DNA of 33,655 bases from Bacteroidales bacterium (GTDB lineage: Bacteria > Bacteroidota > Bacteroidia > Bacteroidales > UBA932). The notes beneath the pieces are model-generated. The model was not told the DNA's origin. It made no database searches and was given only the letters and a program-made list of their open reading frames with translations. Every line of letters begins with the position of its first letter. Within the stretch, counting starts at the first letter, position 1. Below are positions 1 to 11,562 of this stretch, piece by piece. The DNA lies in assembly GCA_015060225.1 (NCBI GenBank), contig SUYX01000021.1, positions 1-33,655 of the forward strand. Direction: 5' to 3'. A program made the position numbers and the translations under genes.

Positions 1-20
1 GTTCCTTTGTAAAACTAAGC

Positions 21-84
21 ATATGTCTGTATTTTTAAAGTTGAACATTCTTTGTTCTTGGGACCTTTAAATTTACAGACATAT
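21..84. repeat. Large imperfect inverted repeat / hairpin
   Basis: Bases 21-31 pair perfectly with 74-84 (11 bp). After a 2-by-2 internal loop, bases 34-40 pair with 65-71 (7 bp). Inside the remaining loop, GAAC at 43-46 can pair with GTTC at 54-57. The right arm runs into a T tract (84-88), so on the plus strand it could terminate a gene that lies before the window. It could equally be part of a small non-autonomous element or a structured RNA. No coding sequence overlaps it. Confidence 0.5.
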
Positions 85-192
85 TTTTATTCTGCCCTCA
101 CGGACACACTTTCTGGGACATTATCCTATTACCACACCAATGGCAGACATTAGCCGGAAATAGTCATTAATACCTGCAACTTCTTAACTAAT

Positions 193-229
193 AGCCGCTA
201 TTACCTACAATTGACTGGTAATAGCGGCT
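193..229. repeat. Perfect 13-bp inverted repeat with 11-nt loop
   Basis: Arm 193-205 (AGCCGCTATTACC) is the exact reverse complement of 217-229. Neither side has a convincing T run, so a rho-independent terminator is only one possibility. The stretch just before it (about 150-185) resembles the left arm in sequence, suggesting imperfect local duplication. The rest of 1-252 shows no gene. Confidence 0.5.
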
Positions 230-252
230 TATTGTACACTATTTATTGGTAA

Positions 253-453
253 TGTACTTTATCGGAGGCTTACCGCTCTTTAACTGAAGCCAGATATAGT
301 TGGATATTCAGGCGTTGGAGAGTATACGCACTTGGTGGAGTAGATTTCAATTACCAATACATGACAGGCACTCTTTCGGGATTGGAGTTGCCATATGCAA
401 TGCTGAACGAGACGAGTTTTATTGAAAAGTATGCCTGTAATCCAATATGCTAA
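253..453 (+). pseudogene. Remnant of a possible outer-membrane barrel protein
   Basis: An open frame of 66 codons runs from just after a TAA at 250-252 to a TAA at 451-453. It has no plausible start codon at its beginning. The translation alternates aromatic and polar residues in strand-like blocks (ARYSWIFRRWRVYALGGVDF and then FNYQYMTG), which resembles the late strands of Bacteroidota outer-membrane barrel proteins. It looks like the C-terminal stub of a gene whose front has been lost. The family call is an impression from composition and pattern, not a recognised domain. It lies just downstream of rdrB in the opposite orientation, in a gene-poor stretch. Confidence 0.3.
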
Positions 454-482
454 GTTTTTGTTGATATTGAATATTCCGATAA

Positions 483-2987
483 TTAGATAAATTTGTATAT
501 CTGAGCATTCTTCTCCAGCTTTTCAATTACATTCATTGCTTGATTTCTACTCACATGATGTACATATACAAGTTTACAGTATATGTTTGAGTATTCATTA
601 TAAATATTAGTAGCGAATATACCAGGATCATCTGTGCCAACAACAATAGGAGGTATTGGGTTACCTTCATTTTCCCATTTAATCCAATTCCATAGGTGAT
701 ATGTATCATATGTATGATGATGCCCGATTCTAACATTGCTGGTAGGAAGTGTTTCAATTACAATTTCCTTTTCATTTAAATACTTCAAAAGCATTAATTG
801 CAATTCTTTCAAATCTAATTCAGAAAAGATTTCAGTTGTTTTCACTTCAATTATTTTATCATACTTCTTTCTGAATTTGGGGCAATGATATTGCCGTAAC
901 ATTGTTATTCTTTCATTCTCTTCATTTATATGTCCCCCACAATTACATTTATCATCATCAGAATCAAGATTAAGTCTATTGAATACTTCACACCATTCTT
1001 CATGATTATACTGAGGTATATCCTTGGCACCCTCCATATTCCCTGCAAAAACATGGAATGGACATAAGCGACGAAGTTTCCATACCTCACTTATCAATTC
1101 AATAGGATAAGAATGCCCATATATACTATAATACAACTCGTGAATTTTCACAACGAGATTATTAATTGCATGTTTTAACTTATCGTTTGAATACTTTGTT
1201 ATAAGATTATATGCAAAAACCAGGTCGTCAAGATATTCACCTTTATGCATGTAGATATATTCACCAACGTTTTCAATCCATTGTTTAGGTGACACCCCAG
1301 CAGCAGTAGCATGTCCTATTCGATCTCCATAGCTGAAATCCAAGAAGTCTACAGCTTCGTATATACTTCTAAGACCTCCTAAAATATGAAAGAAATCCTC
1401 TCCTGCGTGATATGTGAAGTGGTTGAAACCTCTCCTTTTAAGATAACGGAATGCTGGCGCAAACACTTCTGGAGGAGCATCAAATTCACTTGCAGCTGCA
1501 TCTACTCCTATAATATGCCTTGAAGCAGGCGAATTGTCGTCCTTCATTCGTGCAAGCACATTTGCCCTTTCCCATACATCTTTTCGCAATTGTTCATGCC
1601 TAATCAGTCTTGGGTTATTATCTTTCTTTTTTATAAAGTGAGCTATCAACTTCAATTCTGGAGTATGTTTGCATCCTGATTCATACAAGCGGCTAAGATC
1701 TTTCCAACAATTCTCCCAGCCCTGAATTATATTAGATATGAGTAGTTCATTTTCTTCTTTTGACTGTTTAGGGGAAAAACGTCCTTCCACAAAAGCTATA
1801 TTACAACCGTTATTTCCACACAATTGCAAAAAACGTGTCTTATAATCAATCCTCTCACAATTATCGCGAATACCATTCATTGTATATTTCTGAAATTCTT
1901 CAAATCCATAGTCACGTTTTTGTTGTACGAGGAGACGATTAAATAATCCAAGTATTAGTAAATACAGGTGAAATGCAGCAGCTACACTTTCCTTCTGATT
2001 ATCGACTAAATAGCTCAATACAAGAATATACATAAGCCCTTCTACATTCAATGGGGTCCCATATTTAGTTCCTCCTTCAATAGTAATTGTAGCAAACGGA
2101 TTTTCTATTCCATCATTAAGTTCATCATTACCATTGATAAAAGAAAAAATGACATCCGACAAGTCTTTTGTATTGGGAAGTTGTTGTCTACTTTGTTCTT
2201 TACCTTGTTGTCCTTGATGTTGTGACTCTTCTTTATCCCTTCCTTCATCAATAATGAGGTCTTCAAATAAGACCATATATAAGTATTGTCGTATCCTTCT
2301 TGCTACTAATAATAATTGCTCCAATTTATCAGTACTCATTGGAGCTAAATCTTGCTCTATCTGCTCTTGTGCAAGACTACTGTTAGTGATAGAATTATAG
2401 TAAAAATCCAAGATTTTCTGCGGATACATTATCAAGTCTTGCCAAACAATATCAGCTTCAGTAGAGCCATTTAGGTGAATGTGCAAATCGTGAAAGCCTT
2501 GCTGCTGTTTCACTATATGAACAATTTCGGGAATATACGGATATGGTAATGCCGTATACTTAACATTAGGAAGAATCGTTTTGAGACAATACTCTCTTAT
2601 TTCAGATATGTCGGCATTCACACACAATGGTTTCTTCACATGCAAGAATGCCATCTGCAGAATTAGTGGCGGAATATATGTTATAAGTTCTTGCCACGAA
2701 TTCTGCATAGCCTGCTTTACATAAATATGATCATCAATCATCTCCAAATGTTCCTCAGCCAACTTATACAGACCTTTCGTTAAAAGACTTGGAAGAGAGT
2801 CTATGTCTTTTAAAAAATATCGCTGATTCAGTCTATAATAGTGGTCTGGTACATTCTTGTCTTCACTGCGCATGAGCAGCAACAAACGCCGTTTAACATC
2901 TGTGAAAGATGGAACCTTGCCACAGATATAATCATTCAGAGAAATATTGTCTGCAAGCAAATATCTTATGATTGAACTTGTAGTCAT
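483..2987 (-). CDS. rdrB: RADAR adenosine deaminase RdrB
   Basis: A divergent adenosine/AMP deaminase-fold protein of 834 residues, more than twice the size of metabolic adenosine deaminases. The metal and catalytic motifs are all present: HIH (H169, H171) in HDLHIHLNGS, HAGED (H527, E530), RIGH (H559), PTSN (748-751) and GTDDP (D786, D787). Between the first and second motifs lies a long family-specific insert that includes a glutamine-rich, probably disordered segment (about 248-273). Residues 681-702 carry C681, C683, H686, H701 and C702, a possible extra metal site. In characterised RADAR systems RdrB deaminates adenine-containing nucleotides or RNA to inosine during phage infection and works with the ATPase RdrA. 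Here it begins 24 bases after the rdrA stop, so the two are almost surely co-transcribed. The start ATG is preceded by an A-rich leader as usual for this phylum. Whether RNA or free nucleotides is the substrate cannot be read from sequence. Confidence 0.9.
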   Translation of the reverse strand: MTTSSIIRYLLADNISLNDYICGKVPSFTDVKRRLLLLMRSEDKNVPDHYYRLNQRYFLKDIDSLPSLLTKGLYKLAEEHLEMIDDHIYVKQAMQNSWQELITYIPPLILQMAFLHVKKPLCVNADISEIREYCLKTILPNVKYTALPYPYIPEIVHIVKQQQGFHDLHIHLNGSTEADIVWQDLIMYPQKILDFYYNSITNSSLAQEQIEQDLAPMSTDKLEQLLLVARRIRQYLYMVLFEDLIIDEGRDKEESQHQGQQGKEQSRQQLPNTKDLSDVIFSFINGNDELNDGIENPFATITIEGGTKYGTPLNVEGLMYILVLSYLVDNQKESVAAAFHLYLLILGLFNRLLVQQKRDYGFEEFQKYTMNGIRDNCERIDYKTRFLQLCGNNGCNIAFVEGRFSPKQSKEENELLISNIIQGWENCWKDLSRLYESGCKHTPELKLIAHFIKKKDNNPRLIRHEQLRKDVWERANVLARMKDDNSPASRHIIGVDAAASEFDAPPEVFAPAFRYLKRRGFNHFTYHAGEDFFHILGGLRSIYEAVDFLDFSYGDRIGHATAAGVSPKQWIENVGEYIYMHKGEYLDDLVFAYNLITKYSNDKLKHAINNLVVKIHELYYSIYGHSYPIELISEVWKLRRLCPFHVFAGNMEGAKDIPQYNHEEWCEVFNRLNLDSDDDKCNCGGHINEENERITMLRQYHCPKFRKKYDKIIEVKTTEIFSELDLKELQLMLLKYLNEKEIVIETLPTSNVRIGHHHTYDTYHLWNWIKWENEGNPIPPIVVGTDDPGIFATNIYNEYSNIYCKLVYVHHVSRNQAMNVIEKLEKNAQIYKFI

Positions 2988-3011
2988 TGCTACTTATTTG
3001 TCTGTTTAAAT

Positions 3012-5537
3012 TTATTTGGAGGACATCGCGACATCAACTAACTTTTTATAAATAGATTTATCTTTAAACCACTCTATATCAAAATGCTTAGTCTTTCCTG
3101 AACTTTTGTAAATATCCATGGCAAAAGATAATATATCTGTATTCTTCGTTTTAGTTTCAAGCTTTTCACCTTCATCTATTTTTTCGTTGAATAGTGACTC
3201 TATATTCATATAAAGTAATAATAATGGGCATGCTAATAACCAACGAGAAAATTCTATTTTTTTCCATTCTTTAGAAATTTCATTAACTTTCTTTAAATTA
3301 TTAATGAAAATAGTATTTTTCTCTAAAGGATTATTATTAGATAGTGTAAATTTATCAAGATTCTCTTTTGCGTCCTCAACAAGAGCGGAATTCATAACAA
3401 TAACGATTCGTCTATGCATAGCATCACCAAGATTGGGGTCTTCACCAAATAAAGCACGATCATCTAAATTTCTCATAGCATAGAACGCACGTGTAGCTAT
3501 TTTCCCAATTAAATGAGGCGGAACACAGCTCGGACATTTCTCCATCCATGCATATAATACATTAGCTAATTCTTTTTCTTCTCCTTCTTTTTCTTCTTCT
3601 ATAGTATTAAATATAGGTTCTTGTCCCGATGGATTTACACCACTTTCAAAAACGGGCATAACATTATCTTTTACTTGAGAAAGTTCTTTCAATAAAACAT
3701 AAATATCATTTACGTTATTACTACTATCTTTTTTTAATATATTATATCGCTTAAGTAATTCAGTAATAGTACCTAATAAAGTATAGAACGAATAGATAAC
3801 TATGGATTGTTGCTTATGTGCATACGACGCAATTGACATTGGGAAAAATGCAAGTTGCCTATCCATTGTAGTTATACCATCTCTCTTGAATACAACATCT
3901 ATTCTATCTTGTGTGGCTTTTAAGGATTTCTTTGCACTATCAGCCAACCCCTTAAGGATTAATGTCCCACCCCAAGGTGCTTTATTTTCCGAACTATTAT
4001 AATTAATACTTGCTCTAATATAAGTTGACATATAGCTACATATATCTCTATAAACCTTATTTTGCCCAATAAATGAATAGTCAGATAACCCTTCAATTGT
4101 TGGGACAAGTGCAGTGTCCTTTTTCTGATCACTGCGATATGGCATTATAGTGAGGAGATTCTTAATCGTTGCAATCGTAATCCAATATTCAAAAAACATT
4201 GAAGGATTGTTTTTTGAATGCTCAACAAACATCATATATAATGAGAATAGGACCGCATTAGAATTAACAGAACCAGATGTTGGCAACAATTGATATGTTT
4301 CATTCAGTAACTCTTTCTTGAGCAAAAAATCATGAGCAATATTGCAGAAATCCTTTGGTTGTGATTTCGCCAATTCAACATCAACACCAGATTCATACAA
4401 ATCACTCACAAAGGCGTCTATTACATTTAATATATTGAGACCACTATCAGAAATTTGTTTAAGTATTTGAATTTGAGTTCTTAACGGCAATCCCAACAAA
4501 TATGTATTTACCGCATGAATTTCATATTTATTATGTAATCCTAACTTACTCAAAAAATCCTCATAATGTTTATATATTGTAACCTCATTTGATTGTTTTT
4601 TAATAAAAATTTTATCACCATTATTTAGTTTTTCCCCTATAGTAAGCAAATGAATACGATTGGGAGCCTTCATAATTTTTTGCATATATTGGCTCTCTAT
4701 TTCGGTTACTAATTCATCGTACTTCTCAATTTTTTTGAGTTTCTCACCTTCCCAAGTTAAAAGTTCATTCCCAAAATTCTTCCACTGATAATTTCGTATT
4801 GCCTTTGAGAACAACTTAAGGTCTCCACTTAGGAGTGTTATTATTCGTGGCGATGTAAGATACTTTCGTATTGTTTCAAGTACTTTCCACCCATTATTGA
4901 AATTAACATCAATATCATCAAAGGCTATCAAAAAAGCCTTTTTACTCAAGATATCAAGTGCTTCCTCTACAATTTTATTAAAGTTATCTTCAAGCTCTTT
5001 TGCTGCTTTTACAGCATCAAGACCTTTTCTCATCACATGCTCAGGATCATGCCAATTTGAATACATTGAGGCGTTGTCTATATCAATGGAGGGCAAACCT
5101 GCCGCTAATCTCTTTAATTTATCATCCCAAGATTTCCTTTTACGATACTCTTTGCAGCAGGGGTCACATTCATTTTTACTGATTTTCTTTTCGACTTTAT
5201 CAGCAATTAAAGAAATCAATGTTAAAAATATGTGTCCCTTTTCCTCAATAAGAGTAGGGTCTATAAGTTCGATAATTTCAATATTATCATGCCCATTATA
5301 ATTCTGAAGTATACTCATCAAAAAAGAGGTTTTTCCACTTCCTCGTGAACCTAAGATTGTGATTGTATCATTATAACGACCACAAATCTTAGAGTCGTTA
5401 TTCTTATCATCCTTTATTTTTTCATCAATCAGTTTCTTTACTCTATCAAACTCCGCCTTATGAATAATATCTGTACTTTCAAAAGAACGGGCATTCAAAC
5501 TTTTGCTTAAGTCTATTAAAATTTTGTCGTTTGCCAT
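3012..5537 (-). CDS. rdrA: RADAR P-loop ATPase RdrA
   Basis: An 841-residue AAA+/STAND-like ATPase. The Walker A motif GSRGSGKTS is at 63-71 and the Walker B motif FLIAFDDID at 202-210, with acidic D207 and D208. LLSGD at 235-239 fits a sensor position. The remaining ~600 residues are a helical region without a motif I can name, containing two cysteine pairs (C124/C127/C128 and a CPSC motif near the C-terminal third). RdrA of known RADAR systems is a large ATPase of about this size that assembles into rings and associates with RdrB. It is the first gene of the pair and is transcribed towards rdrB. No clear TAnnTTTG promoter was seen in the 140 bases upstream, which hold nuclease-gene debris. 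The base composition is clearly more AT-rich than that of the core genes beyond 8.4 kb, in keeping with horizontal acquisition. Function is inferred from the pairing with the deaminase and from size and motifs. Confidence 0.87.
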   Translation of the reverse strand: MANDKILIDLSKSLNARSFESTDIIHKAEFDRVKKLIDEKIKDDKNNDSKICGRYNDTITILGSRGSGKTSFLMSILQNYNGHDNIEIIELIDPTLIEEKGHIFLTLISLIADKVEKKISKNECDPCCKEYRKRKSWDDKLKRLAAGLPSIDIDNASMYSNWHDPEHVMRKGLDAVKAAKELEDNFNKIVEEALDILSKKAFLIAFDDIDVNFNNGWKVLETIRKYLTSPRIITLLSGDLKLFSKAIRNYQWKNFGNELLTWEGEKLKKIEKYDELVTEIESQYMQKIMKAPNRIHLLTIGEKLNNGDKIFIKKQSNEVTIYKHYEDFLSKLGLHNKYEIHAVNTYLLGLPLRTQIQILKQISDSGLNILNVIDAFVSDLYESGVDVELAKSQPKDFCNIAHDFLLKKELLNETYQLLPTSGSVNSNAVLFSLYMMFVEHSKNNPSMFFEYWITIATIKNLLTIMPYRSDQKKDTALVPTIEGLSDYSFIGQNKVYRDICSYMSTYIRASINYNSSENKAPWGGTLILKGLADSAKKSLKATQDRIDVVFKRDGITTMDRQLAFFPMSIASYAHKQQSIVIYSFYTLLGTITELLKRYNILKKDSSNNVNDIYVLLKELSQVKDNVMPVFESGVNPSGQEPIFNTIEEEKEGEEKELANVLYAWMEKCPSCVPPHLIGKIATRAFYAMRNLDDRALFGEDPNLGDAMHRRIVIVMNSALVEDAKENLDKFTLSNNNPLEKNTIFINNLKKVNEISKEWKKIEFSRWLLACPLLLLYMNIESLFNEKIDEGEKLETKTKNTDILSFAMDIYKSSGKTKHFDIEWFKDKSIYKKLVDVAMSSK

Positions 5538-5555
5538 ATTAAAAGAGTTTAATAT

Positions 5556-5945
5556 TTAATTAGTTGTTAGTAGATTCTTAATCATTACTATTGCAATGTC
5601 CTTTCTTAATAGACATCTATTCATCTGATTTGCAACCAATTCTTGCAACTTTTTTTAGGTAATATTAATATTCTGCTACACCAATAGGTTTGTTGGAGAC
5701 AATCCCATATCGGGATACTTTGTTTTCAAATCTATGGACAGCCTCTTTACGATGCTATTATCATGCTTACTGCCAACTTTTCTCTCATATAACAACTTAC
5801 CTATCTCCAAATAGGAAAACATCATAATAGTATTCAATTGTTTTGCTATTCATAATCGAGGAATTTCGATTACTGTTACGGTCTGTTGCAGTAATTCATT
5901 GTGATCTTCTTCACTGAATAGTATTGAAACAGTTAAATCCTTCAT
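5556..5945 (-). pseudogene. Decayed DUF1016/YhcG-type nuclease N-terminus
   Basis: Reading from an ATG at 5943-5945, one frame gives 31 residues, a TGA, then 57 residues to a TAG at 5676-5678, and in the same frame further debris to 5556. The second block contains LNTIMMFSYLEIGKLLYERK and then LKTKYPDMGLSPTNLL. These match the DUF1016 N-terminal pattern (…N..MV..YWEIG+.I… and L…FPDM.GFS..NL). A later piece, KKLQELVANQ, fits the QQLVAQIPW region of the same family. The C-terminal PDDEXK catalytic domain is absent. In-frame stops and loss of the back half show a dead gene. Intact members are found in defence and restriction neighbourhoods. Recognition of the 5676-5945 part is fairly sure; the extension to 5556 is less so. 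Confidence 0.6.
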
Positions 5946-6472
5946 AGTCTTATCTCTCCGTTGCTTAAACCTTATACAAAAATATAAAAGATTTTCGCTT
6001 GTAATGTAACATTAGCGGAATTGAGTGCCTTTTGCCCATTGCATTATAATAATCTGTTCTTTAATCTATCACATCCCAGCAATATGAGTAGGTTGATTAA
6101 ATCCTCTTTTCGCCGGCAAATACTCTCAAATACCTTTTGCCTTACCCTACTAGCCTCGTAGGTATTCAACTGAAGGCAAGAGCAATGACCACTTAAAGGT
6201 TATAGAATGTAGCCCACTCGTAGGAGTGACAATATTGCAAAAATATAGGATTACAATGGATTTACATGTTTGAATTGGCCACTAATTATCTAACAAAACA
6301 TATAGCCACTCTATTGATTCTTTGATAATTAAAGATTTATTAGATAACTAACATCTAACAACCTATAATATATATATTTAACCAATTGATAATCTACATT
6401 TTACTCTTTTGTTCTATTAAAGTTCTATTTAAACATATTATACTAACCTATAAAATATTGATTACAAGCAAT
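5946..6472. other. AT-rich gene-free stretch
   Basis: I find no credible gene here. A minus-strand frame of about 50 codons ending near 6050 (with SRVRQKVFESICRRKEDL) reads like a coding remnant, but I cannot assign it. The octamer CTCGTAGG occurs at 6155-6162 and again at 6217-6224, the second inside a small hairpin (CACTC 6215-6219, GAGTG 6224-6228). From about 6240 to 6472 the sequence is strongly AT-rich, with repeated TCTAACA-like words. Confidence 0.4.
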
Positions 6473-8137
6473 TTACCTTAAATATTTAAGAATAGTCTCT
6501 ATATCGCATGATCCAGAAGAAGAAATTTTATCTTTAAACCTGGATTTTTTCATATAGATACTACCGGTTGAATTATTGGTAAAGATACTTATTGCCTTTG
6601 CTGAAAAACCAGCGTACATGTAACAAAGCATTCTAAAATCAATTTCACTTAATTGTGGTACGGCATTTCTTGTTTTTTTCATTACACCATCCATGTGATT
6701 GTTTACAATTTCCTCCAGTTGGGCAAGATATTTTTTATCTGTACTCAGTTTCTCAATCTCTTTTGTTACTTGCTTATATATTGCATCCTTATCTCTATTG
6801 AATCCATGAGTCTCATAATATGTTGTACTCAATTTATCTATCAAGTCGAATTGGGTTATAAACAGGTCTGATATTTTTTCTGTCATTTCCATTGCAACAC
6901 TATCCTTATCCATATTTGCATGAAACAGTGACCTTTCCAGATCCTGAATCTTATCCATATACCCCTCAATACGTCTTTGCTTTGAATTCATTCTGTATAC
7001 ATACAACAGGGTAACCAATACAAGAATGACAATGGCAGCTATAATAATAATTGTAAACTTTTCTCTATTGTACTTCAATTGCAGCTCATTGTATATTGCT
7101 TCATTTTTATAATGGTCTTTTTGTGCGGTTATAATTGGCTGGGATAATTTTCTTGCAACTGATATGTCCTGTATCAGAAAATATCTTTCATGGCAATCCA
7201 ATGCTGCCCTATAATTTCCCAACAATTTATTTATCTGATATGACCTATGGTATAGAGTTGCTGAGTCTTTTCCGCTTTTGGCAACTTTCCATGCCTTATG
7301 CAAATACTCCTGCGCACTCCTGAAATCATTGTTCAGAGCTGACAGGTACGCATTGTAATGTAAAAATTTTGGATCTCCTTTACATACTGCATAAAACTTG
7401 CCACCCAATAAGTTTTTAAGTTTCTGACTCTCTCCTGTCTGGAGGTATAAACTGACCAACATTCTAAAGCCATCTCTACAAGTAATGTAATCTGCCTTGG
7501 CAAATGACCAACGCATAAACTCCTGCAAATACTCTTCTGCTTTGCCAAATTGCTGCATACTGAGCAGCACATTACCAATATTCAACTTGACATACATTGA
7601 ATGGTTATATTTCTGAGCGGCAATATAGTGATTGTATGCATTTTTAAATGATTCCAGACTCTTGGTGAAATCATACACTTTTTGATAAAGAAGGCCAAGA
7701 TTAGCATACAGTAATCCTATATTGTAATCATCTTCAATTTTATCTGCAAGATCTTCTGATTTTGTAAATGCAATGATTGCTTTAGTATAATCTCCTGCGT
7801 TCTGATATACTCTACCGCTGTAGTAATACGCAAGGAATTTATTATAAATATCATTGGTATGCTCATAATAATCCACAGCAACAGTAATGAGGGAATCATC
7901 TGTTTCATCTATCCAGTTTTTGTCCATGGCCTGTGAATACAATAGTGCATATAGGGCATTTGCTTCCTTGTTTTTCAACTGCTCCACTTTTATCCCAGAA
8001 AGTGTATCCAATACCTGTTTTGGATACTCCTGCATATTTGCAGAAATATTCATCAGATCACTGACTGTTATGAGATTACTTGTGCAGGATGCAAATGATA
8101 TGGTCAGAAGTATGAGAATGTATTCCAGACGTTTCAT
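6473..8137 (-). CDS. TPR lipoprotein with membrane anchor and C-terminal HTH-like domain
   Basis: A 554-residue protein with a lipobox (ISFASC, C18), so probably lipid-anchored or at least exported at its N-terminus. Residues ~30-330 form tetratricopeptide-type helical repeats (for example around 105-125, 140-172 and 183-205). A single hydrophobic segment at 361-381 is followed by a basic stretch (SKQRR) and a coiled coil (about 390-485). A C-terminal block (495-540, LSEIDFRMLCYMYAGFSAKA onward) has the helix pattern of a LuxR-like helix-turn-helix. Proteins of this layout are common in Bacteroidales and are thought to be membrane-tethered sensors that act on transcription; target and ligand are unknown. 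It is a single gene with a TAAATTTG -7-like box at 8187-8194. It sits in the AT-rich region together with the RADAR pair, but about 900 bases upstream of it, and nothing in the sequence ties the two together. Confidence 0.75.
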   Translation of the reverse strand: MKRLEYILILLTISFASCTSNLITVSDLMNISANMQEYPKQVLDTLSGIKVEQLKNKEANALYALLYSQAMDKNWIDETDDSLITVAVDYYEHTNDIYNKFLAYYYSGRVYQNAGDYTKAIIAFTKSEDLADKIEDDYNIGLLYANLGLLYQKVYDFTKSLESFKNAYNHYIAAQKYNHSMYVKLNIGNVLLSMQQFGKAEEYLQEFMRWSFAKADYITCRDGFRMLVSLYLQTGESQKLKNLLGGKFYAVCKGDPKFLHYNAYLSALNNDFRSAQEYLHKAWKVAKSGKDSATLYHRSYQINKLLGNYRAALDCHERYFLIQDISVARKLSQPIITAQKDHYKNEAIYNELQLKYNREKFTIIIIAAIVILVLVTLLYVYRMNSKQRRIEGYMDKIQDLERSLFHANMDKDSVAMEMTEKISDLFITQFDLIDKLSTTYYETHGFNRDKDAIYKQVTKEIEKLSTDKKYLAQLEEIVNNHMDGVMKKTRNAVPQLSEIDFRMLCYMYAGFSAKAISIFTNNSTGSIYMKKSRFKDKISSSGSCDIETILKYLR

Positions 8138-8186
8138 CTTGTATATGCTTTTAATTCTACAATATAATTACATTTTAGCCAATTGG

Positions 8187-8194
8187 CAAATTTA
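8187..8194 (-). promoter_or_regulatory. -7-like box upstream of TPR gene
   Basis: On the minus strand this reads TAAATTTG, fitting the Bacteroidota -7 consensus TAnnTTTG, 50 bases before the start codon at 8137. No TTTG was found at the usual 19-21 base spacing, so support is partial. Confidence 0.35.
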
Positions 8195-8206
8195 TTGTGT
8201 TTATCA

Positions 8207-8332
8207 ATGCAGATTAGAGCAGTGCAAGGTAAAATACCAGTGGAACTATGTTGGATATTCGGGCTAAAACTTACCAATTATAATTCTATGGCAACCATAG
8301 GATGGAGTCGGCAATGGAAGAAGAACAAATAA
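8207..8332 (+). pseudogene. Small ORF, possible C-terminal barrel-protein remnant
   Basis: A 41-codon frame runs from ATG 8207-8209 to TAA 8330-8332 and stays open upstream of the ATG for at least 12 codons. The end of the peptide (MATIGWSRQWKKNK) has the alternating pattern of a last beta-strand. It shares the codon block for WIF, within TTGGATATTC, with the remnant at 253-453, which may be chance. It is bounded by the ferredoxin terminator and the promoter region of the TPR gene. It is more likely a gene stub than an expressed gene. Confidence 0.2.
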
Positions 8333-8340
8333 ACGATATG

Positions 8341-8373
8341 TAAAATAAAAAGAAGCTGACCTTTTGGGTCAGC
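8341..8373 (-). terminator. Rho-independent terminator of the ferredoxin gene
   Basis: GGTCAGC-type arms at 8367-8373 and 8355-8361 form a 7-bp stem with a 5-base loop. On the minus strand it is followed by a T-rich tail (complement of 8341-8354). It lies 26 bases after the ferredoxin stop codon. Confidence 0.8.
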
Positions 8374-8398
8374 CTCCTTGTAGTTTGGTTGCTATAAA

Positions 8399-8566
8399 TT
8401 AAGCCTGTACGATAGCACCCATTGGGCAAGCGTTAGCGCAAGTACCGCAATCAGTACACATGTTAGGATCAATTTTGTAGATATCACCTGCTGAAATAGC
8501 ACCTACTGGACACTCGTCAATGCAAGTACCGCAAGCTGCGCAATCCTCTGTAATTTTGTAAGCCAT
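8399..8566 (-). CDS. 2[4Fe-4S] ferredoxin
   Basis: A 55-residue protein with two classical cluster motifs: CAACGTCIDECP (residues 9-20) and CTDCGTCANACP (38-49). Each has CxxCxxCxxxCP spacing, so all eight cluster cysteines are present. This is the small clostridial-type electron carrier used with pyruvate:ferredoxin oxidoreductase, Rnf and similar low-potential enzymes in anaerobes. The full length is normal for the family. It is monocistronic, with its own promoter (8610-8640) and its own terminator (8341-8373). A highly regular, GC-moderate sequence marks the return to core-genome composition. The length, motifs and flanking signals make this a confident call; the redox partner is not shown by the sequence. 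Confidence 0.95.
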   Translation of the reverse strand: MAYKITEDCAACGTCIDECPVGAISAGDIYKIDPNMCTDCGTCANACPMGAIVQA

Positions 8567-8609
8567 GACTTTAAATTTTATTGTTTGTTAATTGTGTTTA
8601 AACCGCGTG

Positions 8610-8640
8610 CAAAGATAGCAACTATTTGTTAGTATCCAAA
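8610..8640 (-). promoter_or_regulatory. Bacteroidota promoter of ferredoxin gene
   Basis: On the minus strand TTTG (8637-8640) is followed after exactly 19 bases by TATCTTTG (8610-8617). This matches the Bacteroidota -33 TTTG / -7 TAnnTTTG consensus. The -33 box lies within the last Phe-Gly codons of the M16 gene, and the start codon is 44 bases downstream of the -7 box. Confidence 0.75.
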
Positions 8641-11562
8641 AATATCTTCCAATGAAACCCTCTCCACTTTGCCATATTTCTCTGGGTTAAGGGCTTTCAT
8701 ATCCAAATCTTTTTCTGTTCCAAGGATACCAATCACATACTTCCTGTCTTTTATTACCTTGTTCTGGAAATCTACAACATCCTGAAGGGTGAATTGTTGA
8801 ACCTTCTCAAACTCTGCCTTGCGAGGGTCAACGCTGCAGTCAAACCCGCGTTTCTTCAGGTTCTGATAATAATTGATTACACTTGCTCCCAACATGCGCT
8901 GTGTCCTGTGGTATGCAATGAGATTCTCCTTGGCAATGTTGAATGCAGCCTCTGACTGTGGCATCTGGTTTATGATTTCATCAAATGCATTAATGGCATC
9001 CATCATCTTGTCATTCTGGGTTGCGATGAATGTGGTGAACGAATAAGTTTCACCCTCCTTGCCAGGGGTAACATATCTTGCATTTGCAGAGTATGCCAGA
9101 CCGCGAGCCTCACGCATTTCCTGGAATACAATTGAGTTCATACCACCACCAAAGTAGTCATTGTACATAGTTACAATACAGTTGTTCTGGGCAGGGTCAA
9201 ACACCTCTTTGCCTGTGTTTGAATACTGGATCATATAGATCTGTTTTGCATTGTAAGGTGCAATTACAACCTTAGGCTCATCCACAACCTGAAGTTTTAC
9301 ATCCTCCTTCTTAGGATATTTCTCAAGTTTCTCAGGGATGTTGTGGTGCTTGTCAACAATTGCTATAACCTCCTCCATGGCCATTGGACCATAGTAGGTG
9401 ATGGTCTGCTCATAACCAAGGGCATTCTTTATCTCTGAAAGCAGTTGCTCAGATGTTAGGGCCTGAATCTCCTGGTTTGAAAGGACATTTGTTGCATTGT
9501 TGTTCTTTCCGTAGTTTACATACTGGGTAAGCATTGAGTAGCAAGCCCTCTGGTTGGTCTTGCTGTTTATCCTCTGCCTGAAGATATTCCCTTTGTAGTT
9601 TGCAAGTACAGCGTCATCACCCTTTACATTTGCAATCTTGTCCTCAATGATTGCAAGGGCAGCCTCCATATTCTCGCTCAAACCCGATACGCCAATATAA
9701 ACCTTCTCACCTGCAGCATTTACACCTGCATTACAAGCCAGGTCATAAAGTTCCTTCTTTATCTGGGCTGCTGTCTTCTCAACTGTCCCAAGGAAGTTGA
9801 AGTAACCTGTAGCAAATGAGATGGCTTTGTTGTCGTTGGATCCAAAGTCAATCTGAATGCTCAAGGTAAACAGATCGTTCTTCTCATTTTTCTTGTAAAG
9901 TACCTCAATATCATTTTTTGCCTTACCTTTCTGCAAGTCCTTGCTGAAATCTACAAACACAGGTTCAATTGGCTGGGCAGCGGCTGCCTCTGCCTGAACC
10001 TGAAGAAGGAAGTCACTCTGTTTGTCCCTATTGGTAAGGATAGGGGTTATCTTAGGTTTGCTTATTGCTGCAGTCTCAGGAGCTTTGCCCTGCACTTTAT
10101 GGATTGAAACATAACCGTCTGTAAGGTATTTGTTTGCCATGGCAACAACATCCTCTTTTGTAACTTTGGCCATATTGTCAAGTTCTGCAACCATATTTGC
10201 CCAAGGAATCTCATAGATGAATGATGTTACAAACTTGTCAGCTCTGTTTGAGTTGCTCTCAAGCTCACTCATCTCATATTTCTTGTAGTTGTTGATTACA
10301 CTCTTTATCATTGACTCGTCAAACTCGCCGTTCTTGAGTTTTGCAACCTGCTCCATAAGCAAAGCCTCAACCTCCTGAAGAGTCTGTCCATGTTTAGGTC
10401 TTGCTGTAAGGATAAAGCAAGAGTGGTCTGCAAAGATGTTAACGCCACCACCAGCTCCGCCAAGAACTTTCTGAGCCTGGTTGATGTTCACATCTATAAG
10501 TCCTGTGCTGCCGTTGTTAAGGATGTTCTCCATCACTGTAAGGGCAGGCATATCCTCTGAGTTTGCAGCAGGCAATCTCCATGCAAGATACATGAACGGA
10601 GCCTCCTGACCCTCCATAACTACCTTCACAGGCTCTGTTAGAGGTTTCTCCTGAGGGAACTCAAGTTTCTTCAAGTTCTTGTTAGGCTGGAAATCACCCC
10701 AGTATTTCTCAATAATCTCCACCATCTCATCGGGATCAAAATCTCCTGAAACACAGATGGCAATGTTGTTTGGAACATACCACTCTTTGTGGTAGTTCTT
10801 TATATTTGTTATTGAAGGGTTCTTCAGGTGCTCCTGGGTACCAAGTACGCTCTGTTTTCCATAAGGGTGGTTAGGGAAAAGTTTTGCAAGCATCTCTTCC
10901 AATACCCTTCTGCTGTCCTGGGTAAGGGACATGTTCTTCTCCTCATATACTGTCTCCAGCTCAGTATGGAATCCCCTTATGACATTGTTCTTGAAACGGT
11001 CAGCCTGGATTTTTGCCCATGTCTCAATCTGGTTGCTTGGAATGTCCTCCACATATACTGTCTGGTCGTATGAAGTATAAGCGTTTGTACCCTGCGCACC
11101 AATTGCAGCCATAAGTTTGTCATACTCGTTTGGAATTGCAAATTTGGAAGCCTCATAAGAAAGACTGTCAATCACCTTGTATGCAGCAGCACGCTCAGCC
11201 TCATCTGTAAGGAGCCTGTACTCCTCAAACTTCTTCTCAATATCATCAAGAAGGGTTTTCTCTGCAGCAAAATTGCTTGTACCAAACTGTTCTGTACCTT
11301 TGAACATAAGGTGCTCAAAATAATGGGCAAGACCTGTTGTCTCGCTAGGGTCATTCTTGGCACCAACCTTTACGGCAATATATGTCTGGAGGCGCGGTTC
11401 GTCGGGATTAACGGTCATATAAACCTTAAGTCCGTTGTCCAATGTGTAAATTTTTGCATCAAGCAAATCACCCTCTACTGTCTCATACTGGTATTTGCTT
11501 CCACAACCGGCGGCAAAAACGAGAGCGGCCGCCACAACAAATAATTTAAATAGTGGTTTCAT
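8629..11562 (-). CDS. M16 family zinc metallopeptidase lipoprotein
   Basis: A 977-residue pitrilysin-type peptidase with a lipobox (FAAGC, C20), so predicted to be an exported lipoprotein. The inverted zinc motif HYFEH is at 80-84 (H80, E83 and H84, with E83 as catalytic base). The downstream glutamate lies in the ELETVYEEKN segment (201-210). The length and a second half of similar fold (about 540-970, lacking the zinc motif) match two-domain M16 enzymes with an active N-terminal half and an inactive C-terminal half. Such proteins degrade peptides in the periplasm or at the outer membrane. Residues 102-150 form a charged helical insert between the zinc motif and the third ligand. It is divergent from the DUF1573 gene (start to start 68 bases). 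The natural substrate is unknown. Confidence 0.92.
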   Translation of the reverse strand: MKPLFKLFVVAAALVFAAGCGSKYQYETVEGDLLDAKIYTLDNGLKVYMTVNPDEPRLQTYIAVKVGAKNDPSETTGLAHYFEHLMFKGTEQFGTSNFAAEKTLLDDIEKKFEEYRLLTDEAERAAAYKVIDSLSYEASKFAIPNEYDKLMAAIGAQGTNAYTSYDQTVYVEDIPSNQIETWAKIQADRFKNNVIRGFHTELETVYEEKNMSLTQDSRRVLEEMLAKLFPNHPYGKQSVLGTQEHLKNPSITNIKNYHKEWYVPNNIAICVSGDFDPDEMVEIIEKYWGDFQPNKNLKKLEFPQEKPLTEPVKVVMEGQEAPFMYLAWRLPAANSEDMPALTVMENILNNGSTGLIDVNINQAQKVLGGAGGGVNIFADHSCFILTARPKHGQTLQEVEALLMEQVAKLKNGEFDESMIKSVINNYKKYEMSELESNSNRADKFVTSFIYEIPWANMVAELDNMAKVTKEDVVAMANKYLTDGYVSIHKVQGKAPETAAISKPKITPILTNRDKQSDFLLQVQAEAAAAQPIEPVFVDFSKDLQKGKAKNDIEVLYKKNEKNDLFTLSIQIDFGSNDNKAISFATGYFNFLGTVEKTAAQIKKELYDLACNAGVNAAGEKVYIGVSGLSENMEAALAIIEDKIANVKGDDAVLANYKGNIFRQRINSKTNQRACYSMLTQYVNYGKNNNATNVLSNQEIQALTSEQLLSEIKNALGYEQTITYYGPMAMEEVIAIVDKHHNIPEKLEKYPKKEDVKLQVVDEPKVVIAPYNAKQIYMIQYSNTGKEVFDPAQNNCIVTMYNDYFGGGMNSIVFQEMREARGLAYSANARYVTPGKEGETYSFTTFIATQNDKMMDAINAFDEIINQMPQSEAAFNIAKENLIAYHRTQRMLGASVINYYQNLKKRGFDCSVDPRKAEFEKVQQFTLQDVVDFQNKVIKDRKYVIGILGTEKDLDMKALNPEKYGKVERVSLEDIFGY

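Follow-up and report, generated by a model that had tools for sequence, protein, structure and literature searches.

At one end of contig SUYX01000021.1 of a Bacteroidales bacterium (GenBank assembly GCA_015060225.1) lie two adjacent genes, rdrA and rdrB, which raise the question of whether they encode the anti-phage system RADAR, that is, an AAA+ ATPase paired with an adenosine deaminase, and what their divergence from close relatives can tell about how such a system changes. The window analysed here is the whole stretch of 33,655 nucleotides (positions 1 to 33,655 of the forward strand). Its locus is very probably a two-gene RADAR operon, and as such is a new Bacteroidota member of a known, rare defence system, in which the C-terminal part of RdrA was exchanged in the past between close relatives. 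Although the system itself is known, this exchange is a worthwhile evolutionary clue.

Identity of the operon

Profile searches and structure prediction, the checks put forward with the original prediction of a RADAR locus, favoured RADAR for both proteins. PADLOC models of RdrB and RdrA were the top matches (2.2e-30 and 9.3e-29, respectively), as were those of NCBIfam (2.7e-51 and 2.1e-39), with metabolic adenosine deaminases far behind (3e-11). The best sequence matches in the PDB were E. coli RdrB (8fnv, 1.6e-68) and E. coli RdrA (8fnt, 1.7e-32), the latter aligning over residues 5-307 alone, and the predicted folds of the single chains were likewise closest to the solved E. coli RdrB and RdrA. 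The RdrB model aligns with E. coli RdrB over 719-736 residues, compared with about 300-320 for single-domain metabolic deaminases, and is predicted to carry insertions outside the metabolic deaminase core; RdrA is predicted to possess the helical C-terminal lobe of the E. coli RdrA fold.

An ATPase and an 834-residue deaminase set 24 bases apart had been predicted, and both frames are indeed intact on the minus strand, rdrA preceding rdrB in tandem in the gene order of RADAR, with neither stop codons nor frameshifts across their 1,675 codons. The motifs listed at that stage are in place: Walker A (G68/K69/T70) and Walker B (D207/D208), together with sensor 1 (D239) and sensor 2 (R353), in RdrA, and HIH (H169/H171), HAGED (H527..E530), RIGH (R556..H559) and GTDDP (D786/D787) in RdrB. 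The zinc histidine tetrad of RdrB (H169, H171, H527, H559) and its catalytic E530 are invariant across 66 aligned rows; motif residues whose E. coli equivalents are named in PMC9994260 were matched to these by alignment.

The rdrA-rdrB pair recurs across phyla. In GTDB species genomes, a profile built from five proteins picked up 439 related stretches, the best 80 of which were kept and combined with loci from plasmids, viral contigs and other genomes, giving 99 examined loci, three of them the window itself. An RdrA frame was detected by profile in 91 of these 99, and in 90 of the 91 it lies on the same strand as the RdrB frame and within 220 bases of it; in L072, rdrB is split. Among the eight loci without RdrA, three (L014, L015, L059) have no DNA before the RdrB frame and four (L009, L010, L012, L013) have only 1.2-1.4 kb.

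Several observations weigh against this identification. The eighth locus, L041, is a real exception to the pairing: its RdrB frame is shortened (7881-9860, 659 aa) and the preceding 7,880 bases contain no RdrA match; it is perhaps a relic. The curated NCBIfam cut-offs were not reached in the window, RdrB scoring 175 bits against 800 and RdrA 136 against 600 (NF041743/NF041744). Two of the three RdrA crown residues tested in E. coli differ (E151 -> K135, R162 -> A146), the third keeping its charge (K150 -> R134), in a region where the alignment is loose. The variable C-terminal tail seen in its nearest kin (L016-L018) is also missing from the window RdrA, and with two neighbouring genes decayed or lost, the locus may be eroding. 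Finally, glutamates 595-597 at the threefold interface of E. coli RdrB, mutation of which abolishes defence in that species, correspond to a gap, H625 and S626 in the window.

All three of these glutamates occur in only 4 E. coli-type rows among 21 compared, and therefore mark that type and not the RADAR system. As to the cut-offs, Pantoea L005 likewise stays below them (RdrB 115, RdrA 128 bits). Its RdrB shares 90-95% identity with two E. coli proteins, which belong to the solved type (L101, 90%) and to its sister class. The cut-offs therefore mark one RADAR type, to which Aliivibrio L008 belongs (970 and 781 bits), and not RADAR. This type, which we take to be that of C. rodentium, resembles the window over most of RdrB and the ATPase part of RdrA. 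At its cut-off, the NCBIfam RdrB model misses four of the five RdrB proteins scored against it (window, L005, L007, L016; only L008 passes), so surveys that rely on this model may report too few systems.

Exchange of the RdrA C-terminal part in the window clade

Against its relative L016, the window shows synonymous distances of 0.35 over rdrA codons 1-474, 1.48 over rdrA codons 475-841 and 0.42 over rdrB; such low synonymous divergence in the first part of rdrA and in rdrB, with very high divergence in the rest of rdrA, is a sign of recombination. In a scan without preset breakpoint, synonymous divergence over 150 codons peaked between rdrA codon 696 and rdrB codon 11, at a level reached by 0 of 2000 shuffles. 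Because poor alignment can inflate synonymous divergence, a stricter count was restricted to codons of unchanged amino acids with conserved neighbours; the fraction of these that differs is 37% for the C-terminal part, against 16% for the N-terminal part and 19% for rdrB (p 4.7e-8). The breakpoints for this count and for the regional distances were chosen after viewing the data.

Synonymous two-against-one patterns among the window, L016 and L017 also change along the operon. In rdrA 1-474 they pair the window with L016 (99 vs 21 and 19), and in rdrB 161-520 they pair L016 with L017 (39 vs 15 and 7), a conflict with a chi-square p of 2e-15; rdrA 475-841 leans to window-L016 (45 vs 33 and 27), and no pairing prevails at the end of rdrB (21, 26, 27). 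The conflicting pairings imply that parts of the operon have different histories. Between L016 and L017, divergence is raised over the whole of rdrA, not in the C-terminal part alone, and the difference of L017 extends into the start of rdrB.

Two C-terminal classes in the E. coli type

The exchange appears most sharply in the E. coli type, where sequence comparison reveals two types of RdrA C-terminus in operons whose ATPase cores and deaminases closely resemble each other. Class 1 was represented by L101, L102 and the viral loci L096 and L098, and class 2 by L103 and Pantoea L005. Up to residue 300, RdrA is 91-99% identical between classes per 100-residue block, with synonymous distances of 0.07-0.28, and RdrB is 89-91% identical (L102, with rdrB annotated in two parts, being excluded); past a junction near residue 322, RdrA identity falls to 28-71% per block and synonymous distances are at least 1.5, mostly saturated. 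The solved E. coli RdrA is class 1-like at the junction.

A megablast search found this operon type in 4 of 5426 E. coli genomes, two matching the full query and two matching over 64% of it in two pieces. Both proteins are identical in L103 and L104, so the two E. coli finds of class 2 represent a single allele. Strain MSI001 is an example of an E. coli carrier of class 1, and strain W284 of class 2. A parallel comparison for the C. rodentium type was dropped: of the 5426 E. coli genomes, 24 gave a match, with an identical score in 23; three were retrieved, of which one has complete annotations for both genes and the other two are broken. Type I restriction genes adjoin E. coli RADAR operons of both C-terminal classes (L101, L103).

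Generality of the exchange

The scan without preset breakpoint (2000 shuffles) was applied to 12 pairs from seven clusters of close operons, drawn from 24 close pairs among 81 loci with the addition of E. coli loci fetched later; pairs outside the scan were either synonymous-saturated throughout (L003/L069/L088, the L018 and L026 pairs and, nearly so, the L071 pairs) or redundant within a cluster. Four clusters, namely the window clade, the E. coli type, L032/L033 and L062/L068, each had at least one pair at 0/2000, L046/L049 gave 5/2000, and no signal was found in L004/L075 (275/2000) or L019/L036 (230/2000). For two pairs within a single E. coli-type class, one gave no signal (1468/2000) and the other a modest maximum in rdrB (24/2000). 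By the stricter count, three of the seven clusters were strong (best pair p <=7.5e-10), two weak (0.004, 0.003) and two without signal. In L032/L033, all of rdrA is raised rather than its C-terminal part alone.

The maxima fall at different positions, namely rdrA 253-405 (L062/L068), 260-411 (window-L017), 379-528 (L103-L101) and 743-911 (L032/L033), so one fixed module border is not supported. The scans do support exchange within rdrA beyond its ATPase core. Among distant systems, RdrA is poorly conserved outside the ATPase site (PMC9994260). The literature covered, which included accessible text of PMC10952713, PMC12948488 and PMC11676413 and excluded supplements, the original report of RADAR and the second structure paper, contained no report of exchange between close RADAR operons.

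Possible mechanism and relation to known systems

In E. coli, an RdrA heptamer and an RdrB dodecamer join, and ATP and dATP are converted to ITP and dITP during infection, which is the RADAR mechanism with the best support in print, rather than RNA editing; the same authors suggest, without a test, that the RdrA C-terminal domain is a phage sensor, and describe both the cue that RADAR detects and the part that detects it as unknown (PMC9994260). By analogy, the window pair most likely works in the same manner. RdrA would form a ring ATPase whose helical C-terminal lobe may respond to a phage cue, upon which the ring would dock on the RdrB shell and switch on or channel the deaminase; By converting ATP and dATP to ITP and dITP, RdrB would then poison the nucleotide pool and bring phage growth to a halt. 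Exchange of the C-terminal lobe might in turn alter which phages are sensed.

That the C-terminal part of RdrA serves as a recognition cassette, swapped by recombination while ATPase core and deaminase are kept and thereby changing the sensed target, is a proposal for which we consider the balance to be even. The exchange fits a recognition role without proving it, as neutral recombination or escape from phage inhibitors could look alike. If the cassette reading is true, RADAR would be a modular, retargetable immune machine of which E. coli already has two natural cassette types. With natural operon pairs that differ mainly in the RdrA C-terminal domain, including pairs within E. coli, the sensor proposal becomes a comparison of alleles, and the window, a member from Bacteroidota, extends this kind of exchange to a second lineage. 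Other immune systems also exchange recognition parts while their catalytic parts stay constant, as with HsdS target domains; RADAR has constant catalytic parts and an exchanged part in common with them, although the RdrA C-terminus is only a putative recognition part.

Among known systems, RADAR of the E. coli P0304799.3 type (8fnt, 8fnv, 8fnw, 8hr7) shares with the window gene order, sizes, catalytic residues and, according to the models, whole-length folds, whereas identity is only about 25-26% for RdrB and 20-21% for RdrA, and the interface glutamates and some crown residues are not kept. Cad1 of type III CRISPR, a CARF-fused adenosine deaminase, carries its CARF sensor in the same chain, in contrast to RADAR with its separate AAA+ partner (PMC11645235). 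RADAR subtypes with Csx27 or SLATT partners are known (rdrABC and rdrABCD; PMC7699616), so the presence of a membrane partner is not in itself a novelty. L016 and L017, the two relatives nearest to the window, carry a small membrane protein after rdrB; the window retains only a stub of that gene.

Alternative explanations

The least improbable alternative, though an unlikely one, is that the window holds a decaying RADAR relic, in which the frames are still open but a needed membrane partner and part of RdrA have been lost and defence is gone. The broken nuclease gene, the absence of about 2 kb including the membrane gene after rdrB relative to L016, an RdrA tail shorter than in L016-L018 and the lack of a second membrane-gene copy in the host genome (an assembly 86% complete) would all agree with this. 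Nevertheless, the operon, unbroken over all its codons, is under purifying selection. The ratio of nonsynonymous to synonymous divergence (dN/dS) against L016 is 0.17 for rdrA and 0.11 for rdrB, and the window's own lineage shows 31.3 nonsynonymous vs 48.7 synonymous changes in rdrA and 45.5 vs 82.5 in rdrB, where site numbers alone would give roughly four to one, although part of this record may predate the loss of the neighbouring genes. Moreover, two-protein RADAR defends in E. coli (PMC9994260), and the membrane family occurs in only 5 of 95 gene-called loci and is absent from L018.

Improbable, too, is the view that the RdrA C-terminal divergence reflects fast evolution under selection alone, with no recombination. 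Between L098 and L101, which belong to one C-terminal class, dN/dS is 0.057/0.23 in the C-terminal part vs 0.019/0.21 and 0.022/0.22 elsewhere, and the lean of rdrA 475-841 to window-L016 would also suit this view. It is opposed by synonymous sites that are saturated or nearly so in the C-terminal stretch and low on both sides, by the synonymous excess that persists at codons of unchanged amino acids with conserved neighbours, and by the different sister pairs in rdrA 1-474 and rdrB 161-520; exchange between relatives is preferred.

It is likewise improbable that RADAR acts chiefly by RNA adenosine editing instead of deamination of free nucleotides. A-to-I RNA editing was described in the original report, as retold in PMC7699616 and PMC9994260, the latter naming the C. 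rodentium system; PMC9994260 itself, however, found ATP/dATP deamination, no hairpin RNA editing in vitro and little A-to-G signature in vivo, and of the E. coli and C. rodentium types, it is the former that the window lies closer to. A metabolic adenosine or AMP deaminase beside an unrelated STAND or KAP ATPase, the outcome that would have overturned the original prediction, has a negligible probability and is refuted by the profile and fold results, since RADAR models and structures far outscore the alternatives for both proteins and the pair recurs across phyla, even though A_deaminase (2.8e-10) and KAP_NTPase (2.1e-8) are the only Pfam families above cut-off.

Distribution and phylogeny

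A single-protein search with RdrB was positive in 1 of 100 genomes, the window's own, the other 99 comprising 38 of the genus, 21 of the family and 40 of the order. A profile search at E 1e-30 was positive in 6 of 393 genomes of the order, own genome included, and RADAR is therefore rare in the order. The host assembly (2.15 Mb, 86% complete) has a single match for each of the two genes. Horizontal gain of the operon is what we infer. Phage records gave no match among 50,697, and plasmid records matched in 7 of 72,556 cases; viral contigs gave no match with a single-protein query and three loci with a profile query.

In a tree of 88 rows, built after eleven broken, short or duplicate loci had been dropped, the window groups with L016, L017 and L018 (SH-aLRT 100) inside a mostly Bacteroidota clade. 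These three relatives are metagenome-assembled genomes from goat colon, yak cecum and sheep rectum. The L016 contig, labelled Lachnospiraceae, is likely mis-binned, because its nearest kin are Bacteroidales. Within an insertion of RdrB, a Cys/His cluster at residues 681-702 (C-x-C ... H ... H-C) is kept in the window, L016, L017 and L018 and not in five further kin compared; it may possibly be a clade-specific metal site.

Among the examined loci, rdrB lies in two or more frames in L072, L079, L102 and L116, the latter two being E. coli strains, and rdrD is annotated in L116. L012 and L041 have neighbouring gene families in common.

Flanking genes and genomic context

Table 1. Features of the RADAR locus and its flanks (positions in the window)
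Feature	Position	Strand	Remarks
rdrA, AAA+ ATPase	3012..5537	-	841 aa, ATG start; Walker A, Walker B, sensor 1 and sensor 2 present
rdrB, RADAR adenosine deaminase	483..2987	-	834 aa, ATG start; zinc/catalytic residues H169, H171, H527, E530, H559
rdrA C-terminal part (codons ~475-841)	3015..4115	-	very high synonymous divergence vs nearest relative, low-divergence flanks; boundary approximate
DUF1016/YhcG-type PDDEXK nuclease remnant	5556..5945	-	frame broken, ~670 bases absent vs intact L016 gene
Stub, start of small membrane-protein gene	445..470	-	gene follows rdrB in L016 and L017; rest absent; limits approximate
Match to L016 8684-8830	263..410	.	~2 kb further on in L016; far side of missing DNA

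The decayed nuclease gene noted earlier beside the operon (Table 1) is borne out. One of its five pieces (57 residues, 5679-5849) matches Pfam DUF1016_N (1.2e-7; 32.3 bits, cut-off 32.8), the other four having no Pfam match; the gene is intact in L016 (347 aa, YhcG_C 6e-55), and the E-values exclude chance. L017 has only an 86-codon frame from the end of the gene.

The gene order in L016 is intact DUF1016/YhcG nuclease, rdrA, rdrB and a 218-residue membrane protein. Past rdrB, the window matches L016 6542-6668 and then L016 8684-8830, and this jump implies that about 2 kb, including nearly the whole membrane gene, is missing. The window begins with the contig's first base, which leaves only 482 bases between rdrB and the contig end; of a membrane gene these hold no more than the stub, and the 935 bases before rdrA, up to the next gene, hold no membrane gene.

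The membrane family, of about 210 residues, lies after rdrB in L016 (6633-7289) and L017 (10557-11177) and before rdrA in L048 (423-1055), L051 (4414-5070) and L052 (4477-5151). Its profile had no match in the order (393 genomes) and one in the phylum (395 genomes), a distant orphan (L100, 9394-10080) in a genome where no RdrB was found; one copy had no match in viral contigs, and two copies had none in plasmids. Two copies matched PADLOC models of reverse-transcriptase-associated SLATT proteins weakly (0.027, 0.0014), Pfam matches being weak too, and the five copies had no NCBIfam match above cut-off in a collection where an RdrD model seems to be present and the presence of a Csx27 model was not checked. 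Comparisons of the membrane protein with a KwaA-like neighbour and with a SLATT neighbour were empty.

Other loci have different neighbours. In L034, a KwaA-like protein (10276-10908) overlaps the end of rdrB (NCBIfam KwaA 1.3e-19, 70.7 bits, cut-off 100), a possible RADAR-Kiwa mix. Directly 3' of rdrB lie a SLATT-domain protein on the Aureibacter plasmid L007 (11277-11984), which resembles the known SLATT-associated arrangement, and PADLOC candidate PDC-S18 proteins in L019 (10415-11323) and L026 (10503-11411), from Tannerella and Dysgonomonas, respectively.

The AT-rich setting proposed for the operon is confirmed, G+C content per kb being 31-37% in bases 1-8000, 38.6% in 8001-9000 and 41-47% in 9001-33000. 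The proposed defence island fared less well: the nuclease remnant does adjoin the operon, but a PADLOC scan of 10 further window proteins, a subset of its genes, returned only general AAA ATPase-type matches (2 of 10), the stronger of which is presumably FtsH. A TPR protein encoded at 6473-8137 bears a weak likeness to the NCBIfam BT3442 family (50.8 bits, cut-off 940), and is multi-copy, with 10 matches in its own genome; among 39 genomes of the genus, that one included, 21 have a match.
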